Shown here: in pieces, positions 1,147 to 23,092 of the stretch
How positions within the stretch are numbered: position 1 is the stretch's first letter
How the letters are laid out: each line of letters begins with the position of its first letter
NCBI GenBank assembly: GCA_024282035.1
Contig: JAMWZR010000025.1
Span: 1 to 32,109, forward strand
DNA length: 32,109 bases
From: Nitrosomonas sp.
GTDB taxonomy: Bacteria > Pseudomonadota > Gammaproteobacteria > Burkholderiales > Nitrosomonadaceae
Direction: 5' to 3'
Position numbers and translations under genes: made by a program
The notes under the pieces: generated by a model
The model's input: the letters and a program-made list of their open reading frames with translations, nothing else
Database searches by the model: none
Told to the model about the DNA's origin: nothing

Positions 1147-3235
1147 CGACATTACTTATTTGCTGTCGGCATCAGCGGCCGCGCTGATTGAGCAAATGCT
1201 GGCACAGGCAGAGACGCTGTATCGACAGCCTGCTTCTCTTCATCGCGTCACAAAAGCGCAATGGAAACAGCAACTATGGTGTGTCAACCTGAATTATCTA
1301 CTGGCGGAGCCTAGCCCGGACACTGAACCCGGGGCTTATGTGCAGGCGCTTGCCCGCGGCATGTCCGGTGAAGCGCAACTATTGCCGACATTGCGCGCCT
1401 GGTGTGTAGCACTGGAGCATAAGAAGGCCTATGGCACCCTGCATAAGCTCTTGCAAACACTGATCGATAGTAGTAGCGAGACCGGTGCCGCAGAAACAGA
1501 TCACACAGAAAAAGAAGATGCAGGTTTTTCTGAAGCAATTTTCCAGGAAAGCCTTGCATATCGGCAACTGCAACAAAGACTCAATTCTAATCATTCCAGT
1601 GCCCATCAGCCGGATATCCGTCATCTGCTGCAAGCGCTGGTGGCGGAAGATGTGCTGCAACTACAGCGCATTTATCAGGACTTGGGCAGGAATCGCTATG
1701 ACCTGGCAGCTGCCCGGCTCAATCCTGTGGAATTGCTCGGCCTGATTGAATTTCGGTTGAAGACCCAATCTTCGACAGCCAGCGACGATGAACACGCATT
1801 TCTACAAGCCGTCGAAGCGCATGCCAGTCAGCTGACAGAAGCCAGTCACCTGCCTGGGTATTATCGGCAGGTGCTGGCAGATTTGTTGCAGGCAAGAGAG
1901 ATTGATCTGGAAATGATTGCTCTGCAGGTACAAGCCATTGCGGTGCCTTCTGATATGAGTAATGACGATCAGAGAAAGAATGCAAAGCTGATAGCAGCGC
2001 AAGGGAGCGGAGGGATCGAAGTAGAAACGGCAGAAGGATCTGGCAAGCATGCAGAAACTGCCAATCTGCTGCCGATCACCCCATCGGCTCTCGCAGGTGC
2101 CCAGAAATCTCAAGTTGTTTATGGACCGTGGTATTTGCGCATACTGGCAGCGCTGCGTGACGCAGGGTTGGCTGATGAGGAATTCAAGGATGTTGCCATG
2201 GATTCGCCGCAAGCGGACATCGAGCGATTCAAGCAACATCTGCGCACTATGCTGCGAACTGCGCAACAGCGCACCCGGCTGGTAGGTAAGCTTCCGCCAT
2301 CAGTTTTACTCGATATCACTTACATACTGGCGCCATTGGCAGCGGCGCTGATTGAGCAAATGCTGGCACAGACAGAGACGCTGTATCAACAGCCTGCTTC
2401 TCTTCATCGTGTTACAAAAGCACAATGGAAACAGCAACTATGGATTGCCAATTTGGATTATTTGCTGACAGAACTTCACACGCACATTGAACCTGTAACC
2501 TACATTCGAGCGCTTGCCTGCGGCATGTCCGGTGAAGCGCAATTGCTGCCGACATTGCGTGCCTGGTGTGCGGCGCTGGAGCAGAAGAAGGCCTATGGCA
2601 CTCTGCATAAGCTCTTGCAAACACTGATCGATAGTAGTAGCGAGATCGGGCGAAGCCCGACAGAAAAGACGGCATCGCTTCCCATTGATCTGCGTGGCTT
2701 ATTGATGAAGATGCCATCGATGGAAATATTGGAAGAAATTTATATTCATAATGCCGGACAGGTATTGGCGGCGCCGTATTTGCCGCGTTTGTTCACCATG
2801 CTGAATTTGGTGGAAGATGGTGTGTTTATTGATCGGCAGGCGGCGGAACGAGCCGTTCATTTGCTGCAATTCATGGTGAATGAGCAGACGCAAACCCCTG
2901 AATATCAACTGACCCTGAATAAGGTGTTATGTGGCATTACGACAGGTATTCCAATTGATAACCGAATTGATATCAGCGCGCATGAGAAAAAAACTATTGA
3001 AGGTTTGATGCTGGGCATGATTCAGAACTGGAAAACCATTGGCAATACCTCGATTAGCGGTCTGCGACAGACATTTCTGCAACGCAAAGGCCGATTGCAC
3101 CTGAAAGAAGATGGCATGTGGTATTTGACCATTGAACCGGGAACCTTTGACATGCTGCTGGACAGCTTGCCCTGGAGCTATTCTGTCATCAAACATGCCT
3201 GGATGGAGCGGGCCATTCATGTTACTTGGCGTTAA
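2..3235 (+). CDS. eCIS tape-measure-family protein (CIS_TMP), 5' end outside window
   Basis: The frame is open to the left edge, so the gene starts upstream and at least 1077 residues are visible. The last ~190 residues carry what I know from the contractile-injection-system tape-measure family: the stretch IYIHNAGQVLAAPYLPRLF, then AERAVHLLQFM, EYQLTLNKVLCG, SGLRQTFLQRKGRL and a terminal LPWSYSVIKHAWMERAIHV. Before that the protein is made of two full and one partial copy of a ~385-residue unit, alpha-helical in character, nearly identical at DNA level in long blocks. In Afp/PVC systems the tape measure fills the tube and helps set particle length; that role is inferred here from family and from the AAA+ ATPase gene 39 bases downstream. 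A TTG at 26 could be read as a start, but the reading frame before it matches the third repeat copy residue for residue, so it is internal. Confidence 0.85.
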   Translation, partial: DITYILAPLAAALIEQMLAQTETLYRQPASLHRVTKAQWKQQLWIANLDYLLAELHPHIEPVTYIRALACGISGEAQLLPTLRAWCAALEQKKAYGTIHTILQSLVTGAAETDHTEKEDAGFSEAIFQESLAYRQLQQRLNSNHSSAHQPDIRHLLQALAAEDALQLQRIYQDLGRNRYDLAAARLNPVELLGLIEFRLKTQSSTASDDGHTFLQAVEAHASQLTEAGHLPGYYRQVLADVLQAREIDLEMIALQVQTMTPHLGVDNDDRREETKLKESKAITDVETRKAGILSKSADDTHLQQATQSTLVDAQKPRAGYESLHLRILTALHEAGLIAAIADFSSDTTQAGIEQLTQHLRSLIRSPGQLAQWVNRLAQPVLLDITYLLSASAAALIEQMLAQAETLYRQPASLHRVTKAQWKQQLWCVNLNYLLAEPSPDTEPGAYVQALARGMSGEAQLLPTLRAWCVALEHKKAYGTLHKLLQTLIDSSSETGAAETDHTEKEDAGFSEAIFQESLAYRQLQQRLNSNHSSAHQPDIRHLLQALVAEDVLQLQRIYQDLGRNRYDLAAARLNPVELLGLIEFRLKTQSSTASDDEHAFLQAVEAHASQLTEASHLPGYYRQVLADLLQAREIDLEMIALQVQAIAVPSDMSNDDQRKNAKLIAAQGSGGIEVETAEGSGKHAETANLLPITPSALAGAQKSQVVYGPWYLRILAALRDAGLADEEFKDVAMDSPQADIERFKQHLRTMLRTAQQRTRLVGKLPPSVLLDITYILAPLAAALIEQMLAQTETLYQQPASLHRVTKAQWKQQLWIANLDYLLTELHTHIEPVTYIRALACGMSGEAQLLPTLRAWCAALEQKKAYGTLHKLLQTLIDSSSEIGRSPTEKTASLPIDLRGLLMKMPSMEILEEIYIHNAGQVLAAPYLPRLFTMLNLVEDGVFIDRQAAERAVHLLQFMVNEQTQTPEYQLTLNKVLCGITTGIPIDNRIDISAHEKKTIEGLMLGMIQNWKTIGNTSISGLRQTFLQRKGRLHLKEDGMWYLTIEPGTFDMLLDSLPWSYSVIKHAWMERAIHVTWR
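1147..2310 (+). repeat. Long tandem repeat, copy 2
   Basis: The unit starts 1146 bases after copy 1 and is followed by copy 3 after 1164 bases, both multiples of three. Bases 1181-1279 are almost identical to 35-133. Bases 1280-1430 differ clearly from copies 1 and 3, while 1481-1789 again match copy 1. The linker 1930-2290 is diverged. Confidence 0.9.
2311..2645 (+). repeat. Long tandem repeat, copy 3 (partial, mosaic)
   Basis: Bases 2311-2601 follow copy 1, then 2602-2645 follow copy 2 (1440-1483) almost base for base, after which homology stops abruptly. The switch of best match inside one copy points to recombination or gene conversion among copies. Confidence 0.85.
2646..2660 (+). other. 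Perfect hairpin at the end of repeat homology
   Basis: TCGGGC, GAA, GCCCGA form a 6-bp stem with a 3-base loop inside the coding frame. It lies exactly where copy 3 stops matching copy 2 and the unique C-terminal part begins. It may mark a recombination joint; it may also be chance. Confidence 0.5.
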
Positions 3236-3274
3236 TTGCATGCCGTATGTTGCTACCGATAGAGGTCAGGGTTG

Positions 3275-4621
3275 ATGACGCAAAGCAACGCTAATGCAAT
3301 AACGCTGGACAAGGAAATAAGCTGGTTCAAGCAGGTGCTGGCAACACGCTTTGATGATTATTTTCATCGCGCAACTGCTATCGAAGCTATTCGTGAAATA
3401 GCACCACCGGATGTGACCAACGATCAATCCGAATACGCGCGGCTTGTACAGGAATACCAGATGGGCTTTGATGAGCGCATCGTGATCATATTGGCGCTAT
3501 TGCCGCAAATCCAGCCGCATGTGCTGGATACTTTTTTAATGAATAACCAGCAAATTGCGCGCGGGTTTACTGAGTTTGGCGGATGGAAAGGTAAGGATCA
3601 CAGCGGATTTCTGCCGACTTGTGAAACGGCTGCTTTTATTTTGGCCGGAGATAATCTGGTCGAACGATTTGCGGTGATGCGTTTGTTTCAGCCGGATCAT
3701 TACTTATCCAAGCAGCAAATGATCAAGATCGAACACGGTACGAGTGGTGAGCCATTTTTAAGCGCCATGCTGATCCTGACGCCGGAATATCTTAATCGGC
3801 TAACGACCGGACGATGGGATAAGCCGGATTATGGCATTCATTTTCCGGCAAAATTAATCACGACCTCGTTGACCTGGGATGATTTGGTGCTGAATCCGGA
3901 AGTGATGGATGAAATAGAAAATATCAATACCTGGCTGAAACATTCGCAGACCATTTTGCAGCAATGGAATCTGGGCAGGAATATCAAACCGGGCTATCGC
4001 GCTTTATTTTATGGTCCTCCTGGAACAGGAAAGACTCTGACAGCAACCTTAATTGGCTCTACGGCTGGTATTGATGTTTATCGCATTGATTTATCGATGG
4101 TTGTATCCAAATATATCGGTGAAACGGAAAAGAACCTGGCGAATGTGTTTGACCAGGCGGTGAATAAGAATTGGATTTTGTTTTTTGATGAAGCGGATGC
4201 ACTGTTTGGCAAAAGGACGCAAACCAGCAACTCTAATGATCGCCATGCCAATCAGGAAATATCCTACTTACTGCAAAGAGTTGAGGATTATCCAGGCGTG
4301 GTGATATTGGCAACCAACTTAAAGACGAATATTGATGAAGCATTTGCGCGGCGTTTTCAGACATCGGTGCATTTTGCTATGCCGGATGCGGATCAGCGGT
4401 TAAGATTGTGGCAAGGCATGTTTGTAAACAATTCACTGTTATCCGTCGGTGTGAATCTGGTGATGTTGGCTGAAACCTATGAGCTATCCGGTGGCGCCAT
4501 TACCAATGCAGTGCGCTATGCAGCGATTCAAGCGGTGCGTATGAAGCGCGATCAGATCTTGCTGGATGACCTGGTAAAGGGAGTGATCAAAGAGTTGCTT
4601 AAAGAAGGGCGAACGTTGTGA
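3275..4621 (+). CDS. Afp15-type AAA+ ATPase of the contractile injection system
   Basis: The product is 448 residues. The N-terminal ~220 residues are a helical adaptor without a motif I know. The AAA+ module follows, with Walker A GPPGTGKT at 247-254, Walker B ILFFDEAD at 301-308 (D305, E306), a sensor-1 stretch VVILATNL, and an arginine-finger region EAFARRF. Family knowledge: eCIS loci encode one such ATPase beside the tape-measure gene, needed for assembly or cargo loading in Afp/PVC systems; the exact step is not settled. I chose ATG 3275 rather than TTG 3272 because it follows an AGAGGTCAGG ribosome-binding region at 3261-3270. The stop is 7 bases before the next gene, so the two are surely cotranscribed. 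Confidence 0.88.
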   Translation: MTQSNANAITLDKEISWFKQVLATRFDDYFHRATAIEAIREIAPPDVTNDQSEYARLVQEYQMGFDERIVIILALLPQIQPHVLDTFLMNNQQIARGFTEFGGWKGKDHSGFLPTCETAAFILAGDNLVERFAVMRLFQPDHYLSKQQMIKIEHGTSGEPFLSAMLILTPEYLNRLTTGRWDKPDYGIHFPAKLITTSLTWDDLVLNPEVMDEIENINTWLKHSQTILQQWNLGRNIKPGYRALFYGPPGTGKTLTATLIGSTAGIDVYRIDLSMVVSKYIGETEKNLANVFDQAVNKNWILFFDEADALFGKRTQTSNSNDRHANQEISYLLQRVEDYPGVVILATNLKTNIDEAFARRFQTSVHFAMPDADQRLRLWQGMFVNNSLLSVGVNLVMLAETYELSGGAITNAVRYAAIQAVRMKRDQILLDDLVKGVIKELLKEGRTL

Positions 4622-4628
4622 GACTATT

Positions 4629-7250
4629 ATGAAAAAAATTTTCTTTTCTTGGATAGTGTTCATTGTATGGATTGGTTGTCTGTCTGCGGCATTTGCGGCG
4701 GAAGGATACTATGACCGTCTGTTGAATCAGGAAGCTTTCAGAAAGATGGATCATGCCACAGTGGTGCGGATGCAGCAGAATCTGTTCGTCATTTATCAGA
4801 ATGACCGCAATTGGAGCCGGGATGCCGCACTTAGTCAACATCCGCTCACCGATGGTCGCATGGGTCCGGTCACTCTCTTCTGGTTGCAACGCTTTATCGT
4901 TGATTTCAAAATAGAACCCATTGGTAATCGCTACATTCGTGAAATAAACACGCGCCTGGAACAGATCGCAGCGTTTGCCGATATGTTTCCGGAAGAAACC
5001 AACGTACTGACCAATCCTGATTTTTCGATTTGGAATGATGAGCAAGCTGATTTGCAGAGAAACTACTATTACACAGTCAGACGGAGTGGATCAGATCAAG
5101 AGTTGCTCGATCTGGTCGATCTGTATCGACGCGTGGTTGATCCTTTGCTTCCTGCCGCGCTGCGCACCAGTCGCCGCGAATTGGTCACTTATTATTACCA
5201 ATTGTCAGCAGAAGACTTCAAAGTGCTGCAAGGAAAAGAGCAAATTCAGGCGCAACTGGCTAAATTGGTGGATAAAAAATTCGACAATGTGTCAGCGTTG
5301 CAAGAAGCCGTGACGGGAGCCTTGAAGGATTATCCCGATCTGGCTAAAAAATTGCTGCCAGTTATTCAGCGCTATTACCGTTACGCGGATCCGGTCATTA
5401 CCCAGAGTTTTCTGGAAATTCTTATGGGAGATCCGCTGTTCACGGCACTCAATGGCATATTTGTCACCTTATTGGATAAGACTTTGTCGGGCGTGGCTTA
5501 TCCCACCCAGCAACTGTTTGCTAAAGCCGTACAAGCAAAAATTCATGCGGGCATCGGGGCATGCCAGGCGGTGAACAATCAGAATCCGTATGTGATCAGT
5601 TTGAAAATTAGCGATGAGGATTTTCATCAATTAGCGCAGGATTTACAGACCGGTCCTTATCAGGGCATGCGTGATTTTCAGCAGCAATTCCACGCTATCG
5701 ATTCATTGCGCGCACGCTCCAAAGCAGCGTGCGAGGTTCAAGATCTGGAGTTGGTCGATGAGTTTGTAGCAGGTCTGTATGAGTCGGTCATTCAGCCAGC
5801 CATTGTGTTGCTGTATAAAAAACAGCCGACGTACAGTGCGGCAACGCCGATCCAATGGAACGGCGAGGGTTGTGGTTGCGTTCTCGATTATCTTTCAGGG
5901 ATCGTGTATGGCTTTTATCCTTTCTGGATGGCCAGCGGAGAGAAGCAAAACGTCAATTTCAGTGTGCTGTCCAGAGTGGCCTATCATGAGCTGTCATTTG
6001 ATGAAGAAGGCGTCATCAAGCAGACGAATACTGGTGGCAGTGATGTGGCGGTTTTATCGTCCGATAGCTCGAGCAGGCAACTGCAAAATGAATTCGTGCA
6101 AGTAGCGCGAAAACACAATAGTCAAGTCGATTGGGTGATTCATAACGATAAAGCCTACTGGGAAGCCTGGAAAGTGCAGGGTTATGAATCCAGGGCAGCG
6201 GTTCTGGAAACGCTGGCGGAGAATATCGTGCGTTTGCTGACCCGTCCCATCACTACCACGCTGTCGACCATTCAACAGGATCTGACATTGGGCGCTTTGT
6301 CACCGCCGACTTACGGTGATGGTGTAACGCTGTATTTTGAGGATTATCCGGAAGATTCGGAATCCATCCAACTGTTCAATAATTTTTTTGAAAATCTGCA
6401 AAAGAAATTAAATGCTAAGCATGGGGAGCATTTCACCAATATTCTGGCGCCGCAATCCGCCATGGGAGCCGGTATCTACAGCTACCCGAATCTGCTGGAG
6501 CGGATTAATCATCAAGAGTTCTCCGACAGCGCATATGCGATGATAGACAATAATGCGAACAATGTGCTGACAACCAGAATTCTGGTGCTGATCGAAGAAC
6601 CCACCTCAAGCGCCAAAAAGCAATTGAGATTGGACGTGGAAAATAGCCAATTGCATGGGATTGAGCGCGGCTTGTTGTTGCGTAACATCATTCCCGTCAT
6701 AGAATTTGATGGCAAAAACTGGAAGCAGCTTGAAGATGATATTGTGTATTTCAAAGATAACTTTGGAGGCGTTGGTTTCTGGCCTTTGCTAGTCAATGAA
6801 AAAGCGGTGACTGAAGACATGTCGTCGCGTTGTGACGAGATTCTGTCAGTGACTGGCTGCCTGGTTAGATTCTTTCAGGAAGCCACTTGGCACGGCTATC
6901 CGGATGCCATGATCGACCAATTTGTTTGCGAGAATCGCACGATTTTTCGCTGGGCAATGGGTTTGCTTACTTTACTAAGCTTGATATTGGTGTGCCTGTA
7001 TCTTTATTCATGCCGTATACACAGTAAGATCAAATCTTTGTATATTCTGGGCTTGCTGGTTATCATTATTCCCGCTTTGGTGATTGCATTGCTGCTGTTG
7101 ACGTATGATCCGGTGATTGAACCTATTTCATCAGGCAACTTGCCGCTTATCATCGTTGTTTTGGTCGGGATTGCGATTGGTATTATTGTTTATCAGCGGC
7201 GCAAGCAGCATATGAAAAAACCTTCGCGCCCGAGAATACAGGCCCCTTAG
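4629..7250 (+). CDS. Secreted/membrane protein with PG-binding-like segment and degenerate GH18-like domain
   Basis: The product is 873 residues. A signal peptide (residues 1-23, ending AFA) is followed by a peptidoglycan-binding-like segment at ~40-98 with DGRMGPVT. Residues ~100-410 are a helical part I do not recognise. From ~425 the pattern resembles a GH18 barrel: a first strand ending GFYPFW (428-433), and GDGVTLYFEDYPED around 563-576, which aligns with the family signature DGxDxDxE. D564 and acid E571 are kept, but the two middle Asp are T567 and Y569. A late strand GVGFWPLL fits strand 8. Three membrane helices end the protein (~775-795, 801-826, 838-857). Sitting 7 bases after the eCIS ATPase gene, it may act at the envelope on particle anchoring or release; this is inference. 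Catalysis is doubtful given the altered signature. Confidence 0.6.
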   Translation: MKKIFFSWIVFIVWIGCLSAAFAAEGYYDRLLNQEAFRKMDHATVVRMQQNLFVIYQNDRNWSRDAALSQHPLTDGRMGPVTLFWLQRFIVDFKIEPIGNRYIREINTRLEQIAAFADMFPEETNVLTNPDFSIWNDEQADLQRNYYYTVRRSGSDQELLDLVDLYRRVVDPLLPAALRTSRRELVTYYYQLSAEDFKVLQGKEQIQAQLAKLVDKKFDNVSALQEAVTGALKDYPDLAKKLLPVIQRYYRYADPVITQSFLEILMGDPLFTALNGIFVTLLDKTLSGVAYPTQQLFAKAVQAKIHAGIGACQAVNNQNPYVISLKISDEDFHQLAQDLQTGPYQGMRDFQQQFHAIDSLRARSKAACEVQDLELVDEFVAGLYESVIQPAIVLLYKKQPTYSAATPIQWNGEGCGCVLDYLSGIVYGFYPFWMASGEKQNVNFSVLSRVAYHELSFDEEGVIKQTNTGGSDVAVLSSDSSSRQLQNEFVQVARKHNSQVDWVIHNDKAYWEAWKVQGYESRAAVLETLAENIVRLLTRPITTTLSTIQQDLTLGALSPPTYGDGVTLYFEDYPEDSESIQLFNNFFENLQKKLNAKHGEHFTNILAPQSAMGAGIYSYPNLLERINHQEFSDSAYAMIDNNANNVLTTRILVLIEEPTSSAKKQLRLDVENSQLHGIERGLLLRNIIPVIEFDGKNWKQLEDDIVYFKDNFGGVGFWPLLVNEKAVTEDMSSRCDEILSVTGCLVRFFQEATWHGYPDAMIDQFVCENRTIFRWAMGLLTLLSLILVCLYLYSCRIHSKIKSLYILGLLVIIIPALVIALLLLTYDPVIEPISSGNLPLIIVVLVGIAIGIIVYQRRKQHMKKPSRPRIQAP

Positions 7251-7316
7251 TCGTATATAGCCTGCTCAGGGGGCGCTGATCGCAACTTTTGCCTGTTATG
7301 GATCGGGGAATCAACC

Positions 7317-7940
7317 ATGGATCTACTTGAAAAAGCAACCGTGATGCACTACCACCGGCATCGTATCGCCGAATACCAAAGCGGTTCGGTGGAATCGCTC
7401 GGATGGCGCAGCCAGGTCAGTCAACAATTGCGTTATCAGCAATTGATCAAAGTCGGCGATCTGAATGGCGCCAGCGTGCTGGACATTGGCTGCGGCTATG
7501 GAGATCTGAAGGCTTTCCTGGATTTGCACGCTGTCGACTTTGATTACATCGGTGTCGATCAAATGCCAGAATTCATTGCAGAGGCCAGGAAACGTTACGC
7601 AAACTACTCACGCACCGCTTTTTATCAAACCGACTTCAGCACCGCAGAATTACCGCAGGTGGATGTGGTCTTCGCCAGTGGCGCATTGGGCTATCGCTGC
7701 AAGAATGACAGTTTTTATACCGACATGATCTGTAAACTTTATAACAGCGCACGCTTTGCGTTGGCATTCAACATGCTGGATAAAAAACATTTTCCGCAGC
7801 ATAATCTGCTGGTTGGTCATGATCGGGATGAAATCCTTACACTGTGTCAGGCATTATCACCTCGCGTGGATTGCTTAAGCGGTTACCTGGAAGATGATTT
7901 TACGGTGTTGATGTATCGGAATGCGGTGAATGATCAGTGA
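7317..7940 (+). CDS. Class I SAM-dependent methyltransferase
   Basis: The product is 207 residues. Motif I is LDIGCGYGD at 55-63, followed by an acidic end of strand 2 (IGVDQMPEFI), the usual SAM-ribose contact, and a motif II/III-like stretch PQVDVVFASGALGY. No substrate-specific domain is visible, so the target cannot be named. The start ATG is preceded by GGGGAA at 7305-7310 with good spacing. It lies 66 bases after the GH18-like gene and 42 before the DUF4157 gene, all on the same strand, so it is probably expressed with the injection-system genes and could modify a component, the cargo or a small molecule; none of these is shown by sequence. Confidence 0.75.
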   Translation: MDLLEKATVMHYHRHRIAEYQSGSVESLGWRSQVSQQLRYQQLIKVGDLNGASVLDIGCGYGDLKAFLDLHAVDFDYIGVDQMPEFIAEARKRYANYSRTAFYQTDFSTAELPQVDVVFASGALGYRCKNDSFYTDMICKLYNSARFALAFNMLDKKHFPQHNLLVGHDRDEILTLCQALSPRVDCLSGYLEDDFTVLMYRNAVNDQ

Positions 7941-7942
7941 TC

Positions 7943-7968
7943 ATGGGAAGGCTGGCTTAATTTCCCAT
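7943..7968 (+). other. Intercistronic hairpin before the cargo gene
   Basis: ATGGGAA (7943-7949) and TTCCCAT (7962-7968) form a 7-bp stem with a 12-base loop. It begins three bases after the methyltransferase stop and ends just before the CGGAGAG ribosome-binding site at 7972-7978. There is no T-run, so it is more likely an RNA-processing or translation-affecting element than a terminator. Confidence 0.4.
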
Positions 7969-7982
7969 AAACGGAGAGTCCT

Positions 7983-10082
7983 ATGAAGCAATCATTATCG
8001 ATTGGATCGGAACAACAAGTTCGGCAATCACAAACGACTGCGAATAATCGATCTGCAACAAGCGAGGCGCAGAGTTTCGTGGACAACCGTCCGCAAACCA
8101 TCGCGCAACGACAATTAATCAACACCATCCACGCCAGCCCTCAAATGATTGCTCAGCGCCAGCAGGCGGTATCGATCCATAACAGCCCGCGCATGGCTAC
8201 GCAAAGAGAACTCAGCCGTTCATTACAATCCCCCAGTGTGCAATTGCAGGCGGCACCTGACGAGGAAATGTTACAAGGCAAATTTGAGACAGCGCAGCGA
8301 ATTGAGGAAGAGGAAGAGCCTTTGCAAGGTAAGTTTGAAATGGCTCAGCGTGTTGAAGAGGAGGAACCAATACAAGGAAAATTCGAGGCAGTGCAACGGG
8401 TCGAGGAAGAAGAGCCTCTCCAGGGTAAATTTGCGTTGGCTCAACGAGTGGAGGCGGAAGAACCTTTGCAGGGGAAGTTTGATGTCGCTCAACGCGCACA
8501 GCAGTCTGCAGAAAAACCCAACAATACCGGCCTGCCGGACAATCTGAAATCCGGTATTGAGCATCTTTCCGGACTATCGATGGATCACGTCAAAGTTCAC
8601 TACAATTCATCGCAACCGGCGCAACTCAATGCCTTAGCGTATGCGCAAGGCGCGGATATTCATGTTGCAACAGGGCAGGAGCAGCATTTGCCGCATGAAG
8701 CCTGGCATGTGGTGCAACAGGCGCAGGGACGGGTGAGGCCGACGATGCAGATGCGAGGCAGTGTGCCAGTGAATGATGATGCAGGCTTGGAGCGTGAAGC
8801 GGATGTGATGGGAGCTAAAGCACTACAAGGCGTTTTCAGCTCTCCAGTTGATCATGCCAAACCTGAAACCCAACCGAATAGTGTTGCTCAATGCAAGATA
8901 GATAAATTACGTATTGGCATTATTGGCCCAGGTCATCAATTGGATATATATGCAAATACATTACCTGCCAATACTAATGTTTGGATTTTATCCAATCGCG
9001 CTGTTGATGCTGATGCGCTTGACAAATCAGGTGTTACCAAGGGGCAAAATAAGTCTAGCCCTAGCCAAATCATTAATGCAAATACAGCTAAAGTGGGAGC
9101 ACGAAAAAGATTAGATGAATCACGATCGGGTGGGGTAGTCAGTAGTCGTTTTTTTCAGTCAGGAGAATTTCTCATTCCGCGACAAGATAAACCGAGTAAT
9201 CGAAATGAAGTGGATTATTCCTTTTTAAGATACGCTGCTTTTGAATCGTACAAGTTATGGCATGCATCAACAGGTAACGCGCTGGGATGGCCATCATTAA
9301 CCGCAAATACCACGCTTGTGGAATCCATCGATAGTGATATTGGCGGTATTACCGGCAGCACCAACGATAGTAGTCAAGAAATGAGTCAAGGAAATAATAA
9401 GGTGTTAAAAACTGATTGGCTTGCTGAAGCAGGAAGCTATATTTGGGATTGGACTGAAGTTAAAGATCTGGATATCGTCAAAAATCGATTTACTCCCAAC
9501 GGAGGTAGTCTTGATATAACGCAACGAGACCAAGCATTGAAAAAATTCTCTGAGGAATACTATCAAGCAGAGTTGTCTGAACGCGAAGCTGCTAAGAGTT
9601 CCGATATTTTTAAAATCTATTTTCCGGAGCCTGCAACACGTTTAAGCCCCGGTGCATTTACATTGCTGGGGAACTCTGCTTTCGGTAACTTAAAAATCAC
9701 CCGTGGGGAACAATTGGGTCATAAACGCGAGAGCATTGGGTTGATTGCGGGTTTGGTCTTTTTGGATACGAAAGAAACAAAAAATACTGCCAGATCAAAA
9801 TCAAAACTTAAATTTGATTCATCATATAAGGTTACAACAGGTCTGGGAGAACGCAAAGGTGCGTATGCCAGTGTATTTCTTGAATGGCACTCAAAAGCAG
9901 CAAATGTAAATGGCGGTTTTAACGATGTTTCATTCACAGACTTGAATGCAACAAAAGAATTTGATCAATCTTACCTAAATCCAGGTGTGCCTGCTAATGT
10001 GTTGAAATGGCATAACGCAACGTTGGATAGTTTGGAGCAAGAGAAGGAAAATGGCGCTTCCTTTTTTAGTCCAAAAGCGTAG
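7983..10082 (+). CDS. Putative eCIS cargo: DUF4157 protein with unknown C-terminal domain
   Basis: The product is 699 residues, without a signal peptide. Residues 1-95 are a Gln/Asn/Ser-rich leader with repeated AQR and SP elements ([35 protein letters not shown]). Residues 97-171 hold five copies of (P/M)[15 protein letters not shown]. Residues ~183-290 are a DUF4157 domain: [24 protein letters not shown] at 238-242 (HExxH) and a following EREADVMG. From ~305 the last 395 residues match no family I can name. They start with RIGIIGPG and NVWILSN and contain LRY (415-417) and DSD (450-452), a faint hint of a GT-A glycosyltransferase-like toxin. Base composition falls sharply there (hand-counted 60-base lines: 67% GC at 8701, 35% at 9061, 27% at 9781). 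DUF4157 proteins of this layout are typical of eCIS loci, so injected cargo is the best guess. Confidence 0.72.
8271..8495 (+). repeat. Five tandem 16-17-residue QGKF repeats
   Basis: Coding repeats with consensus [16 protein letters not shown] start at residues 97, 114, 130, 146 and 162. The amino acids are better conserved than the codons (TTACAAGGCAAATTT, TTGCAAGGTAAGTTT, ATACAAGGAAAATTC), so the units are old or under protein-level selection. The acidic run shortens and degrades toward the last copy. Confidence 0.9.
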
Positions 10083-10145
10083 ATTCCGCCTTATAGAGCG
10101 ATCTCGTATATTTATCGTCCATTCTTTTCATTCAATCCAAAACCC

Positions 10146-10778
10146 ATGAGCTACCTTTTTTACATCCATGACCCCATGTGTAGCTGGTGCTATGCATTCA
10201 GTCAAAGCTGGGCCGCGTTGCAACAGGAGTTGTCAGCGAACATTCAAGTGGTTTATTTGCTCGGTGGGTTGGCGCCGGATTCAACGGAACCCATGCCGCT
10301 TGCGACGCAGAAAATGGTGCAGCAAGCGTGGCGAAGAATCGAACAAACGGTGCCGGGGGTGCAGTTTAATTGGGATTTTTGGTCGCAGAATACGCCGATA
10401 CGCTCAACTTTTCCGGCTTGCCGCGCGATTCTTGCGGCCAGGAAGCAACGTGATGCAGCCGAGCTGCCAATGATCCGAGCCATACAACAGGCTTATTATC
10501 AGCATGCCAAGAACCCGGCCCTGCCAGCGACATTACAGGAATGCGCGCAGGAGATTGGACTGGACGTGCAGATTTTCAGCGCGGATCTGATCAGCCCGGA
10601 GATCGAGCAGGAACTACAGCTTGAAATGCAACAGGCGCGCAACATGGATGTGCACTCCTATCCTTCCCTGCGGCTTATGCACGGCAATAAAGTGTATCCG
10701 ATTGATGCGGATTATCTGAATCATCGCACCATGCTGGAAGCAATCAACCGCATCATCGCTGCTAATCAACCGCGCTAA
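10146..10778 (+). CDS. DsbA-family thioredoxin-fold protein with CSWC motif
   Basis: The product is 210 residues. The first strand YLFYIHDPMCSWCYAF carries the redox pair C12 and C15 in a CxxC motif, followed by the large helical insertion usual in DsbA/FrnE-like proteins, and a cis-Pro-type segment VHSYPSLRL near residue 173. There is no signal peptide, so the protein is probably cytoplasmic and more like the FrnE/2-hydroxychromene-isomerase-like branch than periplasmic DsbA. No clear ribosome-binding site precedes ATG 10146. It lies 63 bases after the cargo gene and could be read through from it, but a link to the injection system is not supported. Its stop overlaps by four bases the stop of the opposing lipoprotein gene. 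Confidence 0.75.
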   Translation: MSYLFYIHDPMCSWCYAFSQSWAALQQELSANIQVVYLLGGLAPDSTEPMPLATQKMVQQAWRRIEQTVPGVQFNWDFWSQNTPIRSTFPACRAILAARKQRDAAELPMIRAIQQAYYQHAKNPALPATLQECAQEIGLDVQIFSADLISPEIEQELQLEMQQARNMDVHSYPSLRLMHGNKVYPIDADYLNHRTMLEAINRIIAANQPR

Positions 10779-11653
10779 CGGGCATCGGCGGTCAGTACGC
10801 GCAAGTCGGTTTCCCAGCGTTTCAGTTTGTCGTGTGCATGTCGGCGCTGGCTGGCGTTGGTGCTGTTGTGGATGCGTGCCGTGAAGGCGCAATTGTATTC
10901 CATCAATTTCTCTTGATAAACGCGGTAATCGGGATCGATAGAGTGTTCGATTTGCTTGGCCAGCCCGCGCAGTGCGGCGGTGACCTGATCGGCTTCATTC
11001 GGCTCGGCAGCAAGCCGGCGCAGTGTCGACAGAATCGCGCGTTGATTGCGTTGGCGTTCCATCAACCAAGCTTCGGGGTCAAAGGGAGAGGCTGCGATGC
11101 CGGTGGTGATCAGGTTGCGCTGCGCTTCATCAATATCGCCATAGAGATTCTCGATGCGCTTGACCGTGCGCTTGATCGATGCTTCCAAGCGTTCCTCGGC
11201 GCGCGGCTGCAAGTAGTCGCTACGCAGTTCATCGTTGCTTTTGGCGAAGCGCTGTTCCATGTGGCGCCACTGCGCTTCATTCAGGCCGGGCACCAGCGGG
11301 GCGCTGAGTTGCAATGAATGATCCAGCGCCGGTGCAATGGTGGTGCGTAAATCCTGGAACCAACTGCAGAGTTGCTCGGGCGTGACAGGATCATCGATCT
11401 GCGCGCGCAGCGTGGACAATAATGCCGCGTATTCGGGCAATTGCGAGGTGCGATGCCAGGTAAACCATTGGCGGATGGCCTCCTTGGCGTGCGGAGTCTG
11501 TTCGCTGCTGAAGTCGACATAGCTATCCAGCCACCACCAGACCAACTGCGGCCCCTGGTCGTAGCCAAGGCGCAACATGCTGCAACTGCTGAGCAGGAGC
11601 AGTAAGCAGATCAATATGCCTCGCGCAAGGGACACCCGCAGGGCATTCCACAT
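10775..11653 (-). CDS. DUF6279-family lipoprotein
   Basis: The product is 292 residues from the chosen start. A short positive N-terminus, a Leu-rich core and LLLSSC form a lipoprotein signal with a lipobox Cys near residue 23, so it should be attached to a membrane, probably the outer one. The mature part is helical and Arg/Glu-rich and resembles DUF6279 proteins as I remember them (YDQGPQLVWWWLDSYVDF, then IRQWFTWHRTSQLPEYAALL). Function is unknown. I chose ATG at 11653 because the signal starts there. In-frame ATGs at 11707 and 11719 would add 18 or 22 residues, and the 11707 one has a GAGAAC element just upstream. The frame stays open to 11923, but that part looks non-coding. Confidence 0.72.
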   Translation of the reverse strand: MWNALRVSLARGILICLLLLLSSCSMLRLGYDQGPQLVWWWLDSYVDFSSEQTPHAKEAIRQWFTWHRTSQLPEYAALLSTLRAQIDDPVTPEQLCSWFQDLRTTIAPALDHSLQLSAPLVPGLNEAQWRHMEQRFAKSNDELRSDYLQPRAEERLEASIKRTVKRIENLYGDIDEAQRNLITTGIAASPFDPEAWLMERQRNQRAILSTLRRLAAEPNEADQVTAALRGLAKQIEHSIDPDYRVYQEKLMEYNCAFTARIHNSTNASQRRHAHDKLKRWETDLRVLTADAR

Positions 11654-11978
11654 GGTGCTTATTGGTTGCAAACTAAAAAGCGAAGACAGGGATTGAAGAT
11701 AATGCATTTTGGTTCTCATGAGACAGAAATACCCCATAGTTTTTACGGTGATAGAAATTGATTTCAATCTGGATTTAATTGTTAGGATTAATCGCTTATT
11801 ACCCACATTGATTGACTGGATTCGATCTGTTGCGAGCATTTGTTCGATCTTAAAAGGGCTCACCAAAGCGGATAAATCTGGTAACTGGCTTATTAAGATT
11901 TTAGTTTCATATTCCAATGCCAAAGTAACGGGTGCGTAGCTTAATGCGCGTTCTAGTGAACGGATGGACTACTTTATT

Positions 11979-12003
11979 AGGCAGCATGCTGCACTGAGTG
12001 CCT
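11979..12003 (-). other. Palindrome over the stop of the HEPN-like gene
   Basis: The 12-base perfect palindrome GCAGCATGCTGC (11981-11992) sits inside an outer AGGCA/TGCCT pair (11979-11983 and 11999-12003), with the outer arm reaching the TAG stop of the gene at 12002. It could be a weak terminator or a protein-binding dyad. There is no T-run on the - strand. Confidence 0.3.
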
Positions 12004-12901
12004 AGTTGTCCCGACTTCGGCTCGATGCAAAAGAGTTGGAAATATTTTGCAGCAAAGGGTTCTTCACCTGTAGTTTTTTACGAACATCATCCCACTGAAG
12101 GAGCAATGGTACACGTTCGACAATTCGATCATTCTCAACAGCTTGGGCTTCCAAACCGAGCAAGCTAGCCTCAGTGCTAGAACTCGAGGATTGATACCGA
12201 TCTTGTTCTTCTTGTACGGTGCGGCGGGCTATTGCCACAGAATTGCTGATTGCGTCACGCCCTTTCGAATGGATTTCGCTAAGGGATTGCATATAAACCC
12301 GAGCTGCGATTAAAAGATCAACTTTCTCATCGCATTCCTCTAGTACAGTTTTCTTAAACTTCGTATCCTCAGCTAAGTGCTTCTTCTCCGCACATAGCGA
12401 AACACTAAACTCTCTGAGACCTTTGTCGGTTCGCTTGCTACCAACACTCCACCAGTGCAGTGGTAATCCATTATGTTGAACGTGATTCCGCAAAGCCTCC
12501 ATGAATCGGTATTCGAACGCACTATCGTAGGCTTGGCTTAACCAGGATTGGGCCAGTGTAAGTTGATTCTTATCAGCCGAGCAATCTCGAATATGCCGCG
12601 GGAATTGGTCGACGTAAAGCCGGGCTGCTGTTAGTAAATTGACTAAAGCAACATTGAAAACCATACGAAATTCAAAGAACTCTGAATAATCACTCTGAGT
12701 GCGAACTTGCGCTACAACAGCTTGACGCACAATCTGCTGTTCCAACTCCAGATAATTAGAAATCAGAATTTCGTATTTTTCTTCGAGCGCAAATGCCTCT
12801 ATTAAGGTGTGCCTGGCTCCTTTGAGAGAATCGAAACGCTCTTTATCAATTTCTAGTTCTTGACGCGGACCCAAAATTGCCAAGGTAAGTTGGTATTTCA
12901 T
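12002..12901 (-). CDS. Uncharacterised protein with HEPN-type RNxxxH motif
   Basis: The product is 299 residues, mostly predicted helical, with no signal peptide or membrane segment. I do not recognise the family. The strongest sign is EALRNHVQHNG, where R138-N139-x3-H143 fits the RNxxxH signature of HEPN ribonucleases exactly, and it sits in a helical context (FEYRFMEALRNH) after a long helix pair (FRMVFNVALVNLLTAARLY). The C-terminal third is charged and Ser-rich (SSSSSTEAS near 240). HEPN proteins serve in toxin-antitoxin, phage-defence and RNA-processing roles; which of these applies is not visible. A 24-residue ORF ends 5 bases upstream, and the gene itself lacks a clear ribosome-binding site, so translation may be coupled. 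The flanking genes are ordinary housekeeping, so this looks like an inserted accessory gene. Confidence 0.6.
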   Translation of the reverse strand: MKYQLTLAILGPRQELEIDKERFDSLKGARHTLIEAFALEEKYEILISNYLELEQQIVRQAVVAQVRTQSDYSEFFEFRMVFNVALVNLLTAARLYVDQFPRHIRDCSADKNQLTLAQSWLSQAYDSAFEYRFMEALRNHVQHNGLPLHWWSVGSKRTDKGLREFSVSLCAEKKHLAEDTKFKKTVLEECDEKVDLLIAARVYMQSLSEIHSKGRDAISNSVAIARRTVQEEQDRYQSSSSSTEASLLGLEAQAVENDRIVERVPLLLQWDDVRKKLQVKNPLLQNISNSFASSRSRDN

Positions 12902-19897: not shown

Positions 19898-22800
19898 ATG
19901 AAAACAAATGATCAAACTTTGGTTACTAATCCTGGTTTAGAGCGAAGCATTGCGATAGATTCGTCTGCTGGTTCTCTAAATATTCCCGCAAATACCTATA
20001 GAGTGGGCTCTATAACTCAGCAAGATTGGCTAAACCAAGTAGGGAGATCTCCTGATGTGGTCTCGATTGACGATTCACTCCTTGCATCCCGAACGGAATG
20101 GATTAATCAGCTCACTAATTCGAACCAGAATGGCGGGCTGAAATCTTCTGATCAGGCTGTTTTGGCAGGTGATCAGATTCAACCGCATGATCAACCTGCA
20201 CCGACGAGTGCAAAAGGAGATGCTTTTGGTGGTGCTACGGCTACTAATTCCACAGCGGCAAAAGGTGACAACAATATCGATGGACTTTTAATTGGCACAC
20301 AGTGGGCATCGACGTCGGTAAGTTACAGTTTTACAGATACATTCGATTTTAGATGGACTGTATTTCCTATCGCATTTGATTACACTGACTATGAGGCTGG
20401 CTATTCTCAAGCAGCGATACATGACGCTAGTTTTCAGATGTTTAATGCGACGCAACAAGTGGCTGCAAAGGACTGGATTGCTACAGCAGGTGAATACTTC
20501 AATGTTTCCATGCTATCCCCGAATGACCTGACTGGTGCCAGCGATCGGGATGCCACAATCCGTATGGCCATGTCCAGTGATCCTGGAACTGCCTACGGTT
20601 ATTACCCTGGCGGCTCGGTGGAAGCAGGCGATATCTGGGTCAACAATGGAGGTACTTACAATAATCCCATTATCGGTACTTATGCATACCATACGATCGG
20701 GCATGAATTAGGTCATGCGCTCGGGTTGAAACATGGGCATGAACTGGGTGGAGTGAATAACGTTGCCATGAATGCTGATCGTGACTCAATGGAATTCTCG
20801 ATCATGACCTATCGATCCTATATCGGTGGGCCACTGACAGGCTATTCGAACGAAGCAGGTGGTTATGCTCAAACGCTGATGATGTACGACATTGCGGCGA
20901 TTCAGCATATGTATGGTGCTTGGTTTGGTTACAATGAAGCTGATACCAACTACACCTTTTCAACGACGACAGGTGAAATGTTTGTGAATGGGATTGGGCA
21001 AGGAACGCCATATACTAATGACATTTTTCGTACCATCTGGGATGGCAACGGAATTGATACTTATGATTTCTCCAATTACACCACCAATTTATCCATTGAT
21101 CTGACACCCGGAGGGTGGACTGATGTGGATACTGCCGGCAATTTCCAAGCTGCTTATCTCGGAGGAGGAAATTATTCCCGTGGGGAAGTGTTTAATGCGT
21201 TGCAATACAACGGCGATGCGCGATCATTGATTGAGAATGCCAAGGGGGGGATAGGGAATGACACAATTATCGGCAATGCTGCTAACAACACAATTTGGGG
21301 AGGAGCGGGTAATGATTCGATCAGTGGCGGAGGTGGCAATGATATCTACTACGCTGGAACAGGTGATGACACCGTATGGGGGGGAGATAATGCTGAAATT
21401 TATAATGGCGATGATGGTAATGATACCCTTAAGGGAGCCGGAGGAAGTGACACACTGAATGGCGGTAATGGCAATGACATTATATACGGTGGAGACGGCG
21501 ATGACGTTGCAGATAGCGGAGCGGGTGACGATACGCTATATCTGGGAGCAGGCAATGATTTTGTCGACACAACCACAGGCGGCAATGATGCTTATTATGG
21601 GGAAGATGGCGACGATTATATCTTTGGTGGGTCCGGTAATGAAACCTATAGTGGTGGAAATGGAAATGATACCTTGAAAGGGTGGAATGGAGATGACACG
21701 CTGGAAGGTAATGCGGGAATTGATACGCTTGAAGGTGGTAGCGGTAATGATACTTATCTCATTGATACGACAACTGATATCCTCGTAGAATCTTTTGAGG
21801 CAGGTATTGATACGGTTAAGAGTAGCGTTAGCCATACGTTAGGTGGCAATTTTGAGAATCTGGTACTTTTAGGTGCAATTGCTATGGATGGAACTGGTAA
21901 TCAACTGAATAATGTGATTACAGGAAATGCTGCTGCCAATACCATCAATGCAGATAGCGGGGCGGATATCATCAATGGTGGTGACGGCGATGATACGATT
22001 TGGGGGGCATCCAGTTCTGTGATTTCTGATATTGGAGATTCCTTGTTTGGTGAAGGCGGTAATGATGTACTAGGGGGATCTTACGGTAACGATATTCTTG
22101 ACGGAGGGTTAGGCAATGATTCTTTGTATGGCGATGAAAATAATGATATTTTGCGTGGTGGTGGTGGGAACGATTATTTGAATGGTGGATGGGGTTGGGG
22201 AGCTGATACAACAGGTGCTGATACGCTCGATGGTGGAAGCGGGGTTGATACTCTGGAAGGCGGGTTTGGTGATGATACTTACATCATCGATACCACTACG
22301 GATACCATTATAGAGGCTGGGGGTATCGATACTGTTCGAAGTAGTGTTTCTTATACCTTGGGTGGCAATCTTGAGAAACTTACCCTGACGGGATCGTTTG
22401 TCATCAATGGTTCTGGTAATAATTTAAATAATACTCTGACTGGAAATGGCGCGAGTAACACGCTCAATGGTAACGGTGGAAAAGATATTCTGGTGGGCGG
22501 TTTGGGTAATGATACTTATGTGGTTGATACGACAACGGATACTGTTGCAGAAAATCTAAATGCAGGTACGGATACCGTTCAAAGCAGTGTTACTTATGCA
22601 CTGGGTAACAATCTTGAGAATCTTATTCTGACGGGGGCTTTTGCCATCAATGGTACTGGGAACGGTCGCAATAACGCTTTAACTGGTAACAGCGTTAACA
22701 ATACCTTAATTGGTGCCGCAGGTAATGATACGATGACTGGAAAGGGAGGTAACGACAAGTTTAAGTGGACTGCTACAGCTTTTAATACCGAAGATATTAA

Positions 22801-23092
22801 ATTCTCAGCAGTAGATAAAATAATGGATTTTACTGTGGGTGATTCACTGGATTTTACAAGTGGCATCGAAGCGTTATTAAGAGTGAATGGACAATCGTTG
22901 GGTTCGGTAGCGTCAAATATCAATTTGCCCAGTTCTTTCAATGCTAACACGAACATAGCTTGGACCGGAACGGATCTCGTGATTGACTTGGATGCCAGTC
23001 ACAGTATTACGGCAAATGATTTTCATATTCAGTTGGTTGGATTGGCTGGAAGTCTCAAGTACGATGCAGTAGCGGATACCATTCACGTTTGA
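19898..23092 (+). CDS. Serralysin-type RTX metalloprotease (M10B)
   Basis: The product is 1064 residues. The N-terminal ~170 residues are a leader without a Sec signal. The catalytic domain has the zinc motif HELGHALGLKH at 269-279 (H269, E270, H273, H279) and the Met-turn SIMTY at 301-305, with Y305 as the usual serralysin tyrosine. From about 450 to 955 follow many calcium-binding GGxGxDxxx nonapeptides, broken by three copies of a beta-rich spacer of the form DTYxIDTTTD...VxSSVxYxLGxNLENLxLxG. The C-terminus (DFHIQLVGLAGSLKYDAVADTIHV) is a typical type I secretion end, strongly acidic-hydrophobic. Export through a TolC-linked ABC transporter is expected, but no such genes are adjacent. ATG 19898 follows CGGAGA with seven bases of spacing. 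It is about twice the size of a classic serralysin because of the extra RTX blocks. Confidence 0.92.
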   Translation: MKTNDQTLVTNPGLERSIAIDSSAGSLNIPANTYRVGSITQQDWLNQVGRSPDVVSIDDSLLASRTEWINQLTNSNQNGGLKSSDQAVLAGDQIQPHDQPAPTSAKGDAFGGATATNSTAAKGDNNIDGLLIGTQWASTSVSYSFTDTFDFRWTVFPIAFDYTDYEAGYSQAAIHDASFQMFNATQQVAAKDWIATAGEYFNVSMLSPNDLTGASDRDATIRMAMSSDPGTAYGYYPGGSVEAGDIWVNNGGTYNNPIIGTYAYHTIGHELGHALGLKHGHELGGVNNVAMNADRDSMEFSIMTYRSYIGGPLTGYSNEAGGYAQTLMMYDIAAIQHMYGAWFGYNEADTNYTFSTTTGEMFVNGIGQGTPYTNDIFRTIWDGNGIDTYDFSNYTTNLSIDLTPGGWTDVDTAGNFQAAYLGGGNYSRGEVFNALQYNGDARSLIENAKGGIGNDTIIGNAANNTIWGGAGNDSISGGGGNDIYYAGTGDDTVWGGDNAEIYNGDDGNDTLKGAGGSDTLNGGNGNDIIYGGDGDDVADSGAGDDTLYLGAGNDFVDTTTGGNDAYYGEDGDDYIFGGSGNETYSGGNGNDTLKGWNGDDTLEGNAGIDTLEGGSGNDTYLIDTTTDILVESFEAGIDTVKSSVSHTLGGNFENLVLLGAIAMDGTGNQLNNVITGNAAANTINADSGADIINGGDGDDTIWGASSSVISDIGDSLFGEGGNDVLGGSYGNDILDGGLGNDSLYGDENNDILRGGGGNDYLNGGWGWGADTTGADTLDGGSGVDTLEGGFGDDTYIIDTTTDTIIEAGGIDTVRSSVSYTLGGNLEKLTLTGSFVINGSGNNLNNTLTGNGASNTLNGNGGKDILVGGLGNDTYVVDTTTDTVAENLNAGTDTVQSSVTYALGNNLENLILTGAFAINGTGNGRNNALTGNSVNNTLIGAAGNDTMTGKGGNDKFKWTATAFNTEDIKFSAVDKIMDFTVGDSLDFTSGIEALLRVNGQSLGSVASNINLPSSFNANTNIAWTGTDLVIDLDASHSITANDFHIQLVGLAGSLKYDAVADTIHV
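21247..22762 (+). repeat. RTX nonapeptide array
   Basis: Glycine/aspartate-rich nonapeptide repeats run through residues ~450-955, mostly as GGxGNDxx. Three longer internal units near 21745-21950, 22270-22480 and 22507-22710 repeat the same spacer, each starting DTYxxDTTTD and ending near LNNxxTGN. The array should fold into calcium-filled parallel beta rolls. Confidence 0.85.

Follow-up and report, generated by a model that had tools for sequence, protein, structure and literature searches.

The locus and the layout of the probable cargo gene

We analysed a stretch of 32,109 nucleotides from Nitrosomonas sp. (GenBank assembly GCA_024282035.1, contig JAMWZR010000025.1, positions 1 to 32,109 of the forward strand), here called the window, with regard to the open reading frame (ORF) at 7983-10082 on the plus strand, an intact single frame of 699 aa in the ORF listing with translation. 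The ORF lies four genes behind the gene of a contractile injection system tape measure protein (CIS_TMP, hereafter TMP) and three behind that of an AAA+ ATPase, and is followed by a DsbA-like gene and, downstream on the opposite strand, by a DUF6279 gene (Table 1). Judged from its sequence it probably encodes a cargo protein (effector) of an extracellular contractile injection system (eCIS) whose C-terminal payload has been exchanged. Nitrosomonas species are ammonia oxidisers, and our literature searches on eCIS or contractile injection scarcely turned up the name of the genus.

Table 1. Features of the cargo gene and its neighbours in the window, with residue numbers of the 699-aa protein in brackets.
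Feature	Position	Strand	Basis
CIS tape measure protein (CIS_TMP), 5' end cut by contig edge	2-3235	+	Pfam, 3.5e-72
AAA+ ATPase of eCIS	3272-4621	+	Pfam AAA, 1e-28; slot orthologues
873-aa operon protein, C-terminal membrane segments by eye	4629-7250	+	no Pfam match above cut-off
Class I SAM (S-adenosylmethionine) methyltransferase, left border of genus cargo slot	7317-7940	+	Pfam, slot survey
Gln-rich hydrophilic leader (1-92)	7983-8258	+	composition, motif list, homologues
Repeat region, five (L/I)QGKF units (93-180)	8259-8522	+	tandem array, motif count
Conserved carrier core, eCIS_core with HEAWH and EREAD (about 181-276)	8523-8812	+	Pfam, DNA conservation
HEAWH zinc-binding motif (238-242)	8694-8708	+	translation, motif list
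EREAD (270-274)	8790-8804	+	alignment; spacing in carriers
Swapped cassette, 1333 bases	8813-10145	+	blastn against L077, border alignments
VAQCK junction motif (301-305)	8883-8897	+	motif list, enrichment counts
Orphan payload domain (306-699)	8898-10079	+	homology searches, weak Rossmann-like start
DsbA-like (Thioredoxin_5) gene	10146-10778	+	Pfam; right border of cassette

An earlier note on this DNA, made from the letters alone, had described a Gln-rich leader, five QGKF repeats, a DUF4157 domain with HEAWH and about 395 C-terminal residues without recognisable relative, and all four descriptions were borne out. Gln accounts for 18.5% of the leader, which carries the motifs IAQRQ (twice), ATQRE and SVQLQ and is presumed to be a loading signal; leader homologues were found in 91 ORFs among the first 95 loci, some of which overlap. 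The five QGKF copies start at residues 98, 115, 131, 147 and 163, each (L/I)QGKF unit leading into AQR or VQR and the spacers being acidic, and form a tandem array in the DNA at 8307-8494 with a period of 48 bases. The number of QGK copies ranges from 0 to 6 among the carriers listed, with four in the sister allele L077. The Pfam family eCIS_core (PF13699, the old DUF4157) matches residues 184-249 above cut-off (E=1.3e-7, 32.1 bits vs a cut-off of 22), with HEAWH starting at residue 238; DUF2125 also matches this part, under its cut-off (16.5 vs 24.2). For the C-terminal residues the family libraries and the PDB yielded one weak partial NCBIfam match, described below.

Cassette exchange and the cargo slot of Nitrosomonas

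In a blastn comparison with L077 (genome G027), the window shows 97.6% DNA identity over 2022-8812 and again 98.0% over 10146-12631. The bases between these blocks, 8813-10145, have no blastn counterpart in L077, which carries 600 unrelated bases in their place (L077 8268-8867). L077 contains locus L096 letter for letter, that is, Nitrosomonas sp. isolate Go_SlAct_bin_519, JAGOKN010000014.1. On the left, base 8813 lies in the codon of residue 277 (Gly), directly after E270-R-E-A-D-V-M; on the right, the start codon of the DsbA-like gene opens with base 10146, 63 bases behind the stop codon of the payload. In a third allele, L072 (genome G055), similarity ends at base 8821 behind the core and resumes at 10127, with a third payload between. 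Because these borders are shared by the alleles, the exchanged unit reaches from the end of the core to the start of the next gene. At the level of aligned DNA, the C-terminal part is thus shown to be a cassette exchanged at a fixed site between core end and next gene, for which recombination would be the natural reading. Base composition changes along with it: the G+C fraction is 0.524 in leader and core and 0.409 after base 8812. The earlier note had claimed such a fall, and the fall stands; its range of 27-45% was slightly narrow at the top, as the C-terminal part, taken in lines of 60 bases, has values between 0.267 and 0.50.

The lack of a relative in any set searched would suit a C-terminal part that is just a decaying or meaningless tail, but this can hardly be credited given its 399 open codons, the absence of a competing ORF of more than 72 aa, balanced charges (47 acidic vs 48 basic residues) and cassette borders that coincide with the payload borders of two sister alleles. 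No immunity gene of more than 72 aa was seen within the payload stretch either.

The exchange site is part of a wider cargo slot. We surveyed the 21 distinct loci in which the methyltransferase has an orthologue at 60% identity or more, counting the locus studied here and leaving out eight short ones. The gene order is TMP, AAA+ ATPase, 873-aa protein, methyltransferase and then cargo: AAA+ orthologues (76-98% identity) are present in 14 of the 16 loci reaching at least 3.9 kb upstream of the methyltransferase, an orthologue of the 873-aa protein (51-99% identity) in 17 of the 19 reaching at least 2.5 kb upstream, and TMP was seen in 12 loci. On the downstream side of the methyltransferase the loci have between one and four leader/core proteins; in 12/21 of them, DsbA or DUF6279 lies within 8 kb downstream. 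By blastp, 35 slot cargoes fall into 23 unrelated groups over 20 loci; these cargoes were picked by hand, excluding core proteins that stand alone and ORFs matching neither leader nor core, and with the near-identical loci L058 and L060 counted separately. A core match above 100 bits is present in 19 of the 35. For the whole genus, 45 payloads form 30 groups; adding 78 loci from named records brings this to 128 payloads in 90 groups, of which 71 are singletons. Nine of the 21 slot loci also encode stand-alone proteins of 229-241 aa that consist of leader and core and carry no payload. Leader-only or fused cargoes adjoin a stand-alone leader-plus-core gene of 235-241 aa in L054, L055, L058-L061, L065 and L068.

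A Pfam scan of 30 sister proteins chosen by hand gave three nuclease-type results above cut-off, namely EndoU (L068), WHH with Colicin-DNase (L055) and Endonuclea_NS_2 (L070). The first two proteins sit in the slot and the third elsewhere; the EndoU protein has a leader and no core match. In all, a nuclease-family match at E<=0.05 was found in 12 of the 30 scanned proteins (3 over the curated cut-off, 9 under) and in none of the other 18. This picture is as one would expect of polymorphic toxins. The search for the leader and DUF4157 on other C-terminal domains near AAA+/CIS_TMP genes, which the earlier note had proposed, returned many unrelated payloads in the Nitrosomonas slot. Carrier homologues near such genes were found, so that the other refuting result named by the note, homologues never lying near eCIS genes, did not arise, though an AAA+ or TMP orthologue is seen within the stretch covered in 12/42 loci of HEAWH type. 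Comparing the alleles of three Nitrosomonas species at a single chromosomal site speaks for the idea of a swapped-in effector, as do the genus-wide slot and the nuclease-toxin domains on sister proteins.

In 38 of 85 Nitrosomonas species eCIS_core genes were found above cut-off, and many of these species share the payload-exchange site, which provides a natural series in which different payloads sit on closely related carriers. Some Nitrosomonas also have tandem arrays of a second eCIS_core subtype (e.g. G498:C19, G002:C11), mostly with HELTH and scoring above 80 bits, which is distinct from the HEAWH type of the ORF at 7983-10082.

The carrier core and the hydrophobic-Q motif

The conserved block of the carrier extends beyond the Pfam domain, to E-x-E-A-D-x-M-G. 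E270-R-E-A-D sits 27 residues past HEAWH and its glutamate is presumably the third zinc ligand, so that the set of zinc motifs is complete. In 12 of 12 aligned carriers, hand-picked from 55, the H, E, H and E of both motifs are invariant. Among 56 Nitrosomonas carriers (core score above 145 bits; five with 90-145 bits were dropped), 51 have HExxH together with ExxAD/ExEAD, at a spacing of exactly 27 in 44 of these. A named set of 108 ORFs from the 78 named-record loci, covering several phyla, was retrieved by the string HLPHE or HExWH; HExxH is there by construction, and the set is informative only for the downstream glutamate and the spacing. The second motif is present in 107 of these ORFs with a spacing of 27 in 102/107, and a few of the loci are also in the Nitrosomonas set.

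A short motif of a hydrophobic residue, Q and then R, K, C or L recurs in leaders and at some junctions of carrier and payload. VAQCK is of the hydrophobic-Q-x-K type found in the leader and stands directly ahead of DKLRIGIIG, where the weak Rossmann-type match described below begins. Before the core, the 56 Nitrosomonas carriers contain 259 copies of [VIAL]Q[RK] (mean 32.4 and maximum 49 in 200 shuffles), and 29 copies were counted in the 100 residues behind the core of 42 carriers (mean 8.1, maximum 18); the named set has 284 copies in 106 leaders (mean 44.7) and 81 in 91 linkers (mean 18.0), all these counts being inflated by tandem repeats and common descent. We also compared payloads between carriers. 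Of the 128 payloads, 55 have a partner below 70% identity over at least 40 residues, and 41 are left after removal of the 14 aligned within 12 residues of the linker start. Alignments start at the motif, in a wider spelling, in 14 of these 41 against 4.6 expected and elsewhere in 27, the members of a pair not being independent. A literature search linking DUF4157 with VQRK, QGKF or QRK motifs found nothing related. We read the motif as a putative docking or cleavage site. Payloads with a GFEFE-like start right behind VQRK, VQRR or LQGKF were seen in L147, L046, L056 and L110 (the last being the same place as L049); these starts are, we assume, reminiscent of amidoligases.

The kind of protein is already known, because its architecture and the idea of autoprocessing were published in 2012, when Zhang et al. 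(PMC3482391) described PVC-metallopeptidase toxins with a constant N-terminal metallopeptidase and highly variable C-termini, proposed autoproteolytic release and noted that immunity genes are often absent. The ORF at 7983-10082 shares with these toxins the constant carrier, the variable C-terminus and the HExxHxxQ-E signature, with which its zinc motifs agree; the difference is that no family in any library searched here matched its C-terminal domain. The portion of that article available to us names Nitrosococcus, not Nitrosomonas. The AlgoCIS cargoes Cgo1 and Cgo2, which were shown to fill the tube lumen, have the same layout of a disordered N-terminus and a central DUF4157 with differing C-termini (PMC8894135), whereas organism and payloads are different. 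Geller et al. 2021 (PMC8213781) and Danov et al. 2024 (PMC11297309) made DUF4157 an eCIS marker and assayed toxins; EAT1-EAT16 were shown to be toxic, and for seven of the first set DUF4157 is found either within the toxin protein itself or encoded nearby, yet no family match ties the orphan payload to the EAT payloads. VgrG2b of the type VI secretion system (PMC6899460) is likewise a DUF4157-annotated gluzincin with HExxH and a glutamate as third ligand, but there the peptidase is the C-terminal toxin, whereas in our ORF it lies between leader and payload. Within the reach of our searches, three things are new: the orphan payload, the resolution of the Nitrosomonas cassette exchange to single bases, and the junction motif. 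The same carrier occurs with different payloads and a candidate junction motif, which makes the role of the DUF4157 core testable.

For the cargo with exchanged payload that we favour, we propose a mechanism in three steps. By what is known of the family, the disordered Gln-rich leader and the QGKF repeats would be recognised for loading into the tube, with the AAA+ ATPase, presumed to be a cargo-loading ATPase that is Pvc15-like by position, helping. The eCIS_core would act as a compact zinc-metallopeptidase-like unit that escorts the payload and may process it by cutting at the adjoining hydrophobic-Q-x-K motif; the earlier note had already surmised that the HExxH part processes or escorts the payload. 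After contraction, residues 306-699 would act in the target cell, most likely as a harmful enzyme; a toxic payload is presumed. As the cassette holds no second ORF of more than 72 aa that might encode immunity, the payload is probably aimed at organisms other than the producer's kin; the target may be a distant bacterium or a eukaryote, e.g. a grazing protist. The orphan payload is a candidate new effector family. In a bolder version, to which we give a rather small chance, residues 306-699 are a new effector family of novel activity and hydrophobic-Q-(R/K/G/C/L)-(K/F) is a release code read by eCIS_core in cis or in trans. The motif copies in the leader would then be further docking or cutting sites, whose number would set loading or timing.

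Two other roles of the core were weighed. The eCIS_core metallopeptidase could itself be the injected effector, with the variable C-termini as targeting or folding appendages. The zinc site is complete in most carriers, the short leader-plus-core proteins without payload exist in nine slot loci, and VgrG2b is an example of a DUF4157-type peptidase acting as a toxin (PMC6899460), all of which would fit. Yet we consider this role distinctly unlikely: the C-termini are replaced as whole cassettes, some of them are recognised nuclease-toxin domains, and the EndoU slot protein has a leader and no core match. A constant toxin with a hypervariable appendage is less likely because of these cassette-wise swaps and nuclease-toxin C-termini. 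Alternatively, the core could be a chaperone or docking module that fastens leader and payload to tube or hub without any cutting, with hydrophobic-Q-x-K as its binding site. We take this to be a serious contender, if short of an even chance. In sixteen of the slot cargoes (35 in all) the leader is present and no core match exceeds 100 bits; many of these lie beside a stand-alone leader-plus-core gene, as if the stand-alone core worked in trans. Carriers with a partly lost zinc site persist; one DUF4157 protein, from Streptomyces, binds an effector via the latter's N-terminal region (PMC13277306), and Danov et al. likewise propose a chaperone (PMC11297309). On the other hand, the HExxH-27-E spacing is kept in 44/51 Nitrosomonas carriers and 102/107 named records, which pure docking would not require.

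Several observations weigh against our preferred reading of an eCIS cargo escorted and possibly processed by its core. The sixteen slot cargoes without core match are one of them, and because of them the core is evidently not needed in cis. The zinc site is partly lost in 5/56 Nitrosomonas carriers (L038, L039, L055, L069, L083) and the toxicity of Cgo1 in E. coli is independent of its HExxH motifs (PMC8894135), so that protease activity of the core cannot be taken for granted. The leader departs in part from many eCIS signals, which have an aromatic residue and slight positive charge in a disordered hydrophilic N-terminus (Danov et al. 2024, PMC11297309): it has no aromatic residue among the first 8 and a charge of 0 in residues 6-21, although its Kyte-Doolittle sum of -46.3 over the first 50 residues fits the hydrophilic signal of the same authors. 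Loci L049 and L061 have the methyltransferase and a carrier without AAA+ ATPase, 873-aa protein or TMP despite more than 6 kb upstream; at these two loci the slot has perhaps been relocated, or its machine lost. Likewise, 30 of the 42 HEAWH-type loci have no AAA+ or TMP orthologue in the stretch, some of them ending at contig ends. Finally, a sheath was not found in the host draft (2.93 Mb, 97 contigs) by a search that was positive in 5/5 congeners, nor was a gp19 tube, by a search run without positive control; the host eCIS operon is cut by contig ends, and the missing sheath and tube may be gap or loss alike. Of the altered-zinc carriers, L055 (8943-10436) and L069 (6588-8048) sit in the cargo slot, and L055 is the one that bears the WHH/colicin-type nuclease domain above cut-off.

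The payload domain and the neighbouring genes

The earlier note had named a match of residues 300-699 to a housekeeping family as a result that would speak against an effector. No such family matched, apart from one weak partial Rossmann-like hit. With Pfam, PHROGs and PADLOC the C-terminal part had no match up to E=10, a limit above ~0.1 of which most is dropped by the HMMER filters, and none with the PDB up to E=10. The genome samples, which overlap and have metagenome contigs and Bacteroidota outside them, gave no payload relatives in the relatives sample (other 100 genomes), the order sample (other 398 genomes) or the genus sample (other 84 genomes). The phylum sample (398 genomes) gave only two chance matches, named by eye as a tail-specific-protease-like ORF and a GntR-like regulator, and the class sample (369 genomes) a single one with two in-frame stops, antisense to a histidine-kinase-like gene (by eye). 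Plasmids yielded no relative and phages one match at E=3. In searches that reach close relatives only, none of 35 pattern matches in genome contigs was confirmed as a payload relative, and viral contigs gave none. Among 174 loci there was no relative at E<1e-3 apart from the payload's own loci.

The partial hit is to 2-dehydropantoate 2-reductase in NCBIfam, at residues 307-368 (E=0.0034, 16.8 bits vs a cut-off of 308). A 79-aa piece picked afterwards reached E=1.3e-4, and four shuffles and the reverse gave nothing. That the payload is an NAD(P)- or nucleotide-binding enzyme of Rossmann type is a possibility we entertain tentatively. A cleaned local model of 18 Rossmann N-termini, not all of them reductases, speaks for it in that only 16 of 20,000 shuffles score as high as the payload, but the score itself is only 4.5 bits, and an earlier local model from a mixed set with unrelated ORFs did not report the payload. 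Moreover, Pfam, PHROGs and PDB lend no support, the third glycine of GxGxxG is absent (GPGHQL in the payload), and the match spans about 62 of 399 residues with nothing matching beyond. The payload was not filed with the KPR/ApbA Rossmann domain because GxGxxG is incomplete and there is no match past the first stretch.

Further assignments were tried and rejected. Tox-Glycosyltransferase domains (PF04488-like) have the motifs [DNE]xxR and YxDxD (PMC3482391); the payload has SIDSD and lacks YxDxD, and there is no Pfam match. A reading as sugar transferase from SIDSD and SFLRYA was dropped for want of motifs and a profile match, and an ADP-ribosyltransferase was considered with no match behind it.

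Upstream, the TMP gene contains long internal repeats, with several cross-matching stretches of 0.3-1.7 kb against a sister contig. Contig C1 of the host draft starts inside these repeats, so its edge is likely an assembly break. The host draft has Pvc16_N on contig C58 (L206:5121-5690), 0.7 kb from the end of this contig of 6403 bases, where it adjoins HerA-like, glucokinase and phosphorylase genes. The closed genome of a congener (G044) has, within 20 kb upstream of TMP, a sheath (PF17482 above and PF04984 below cut-off), two gp19 tubes, CIS_tube, a spike/hub (Phage_base_V), gp25 and Baseplate_J. The 873-aa protein has what we take by eye to be a peptidoglycan-binding-repeat-like start and a GH18-type-glycosidase-like middle, and a role in particle release or anchoring is possible.

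Two genes further downstream in the window may be mentioned. A 299-aa ORF without Pfam match at 12002-12901 on the minus strand, common only to L077 among the first 95 loci, has a very weak NCBIfam match to the effector kinase HopBF1 (E=0.011). The gene at 19898-23092 encodes an RTX protein of 1064 aa; its C-terminal repeats are of serralysin type, and a reprolysin-like match stays below cut-off.

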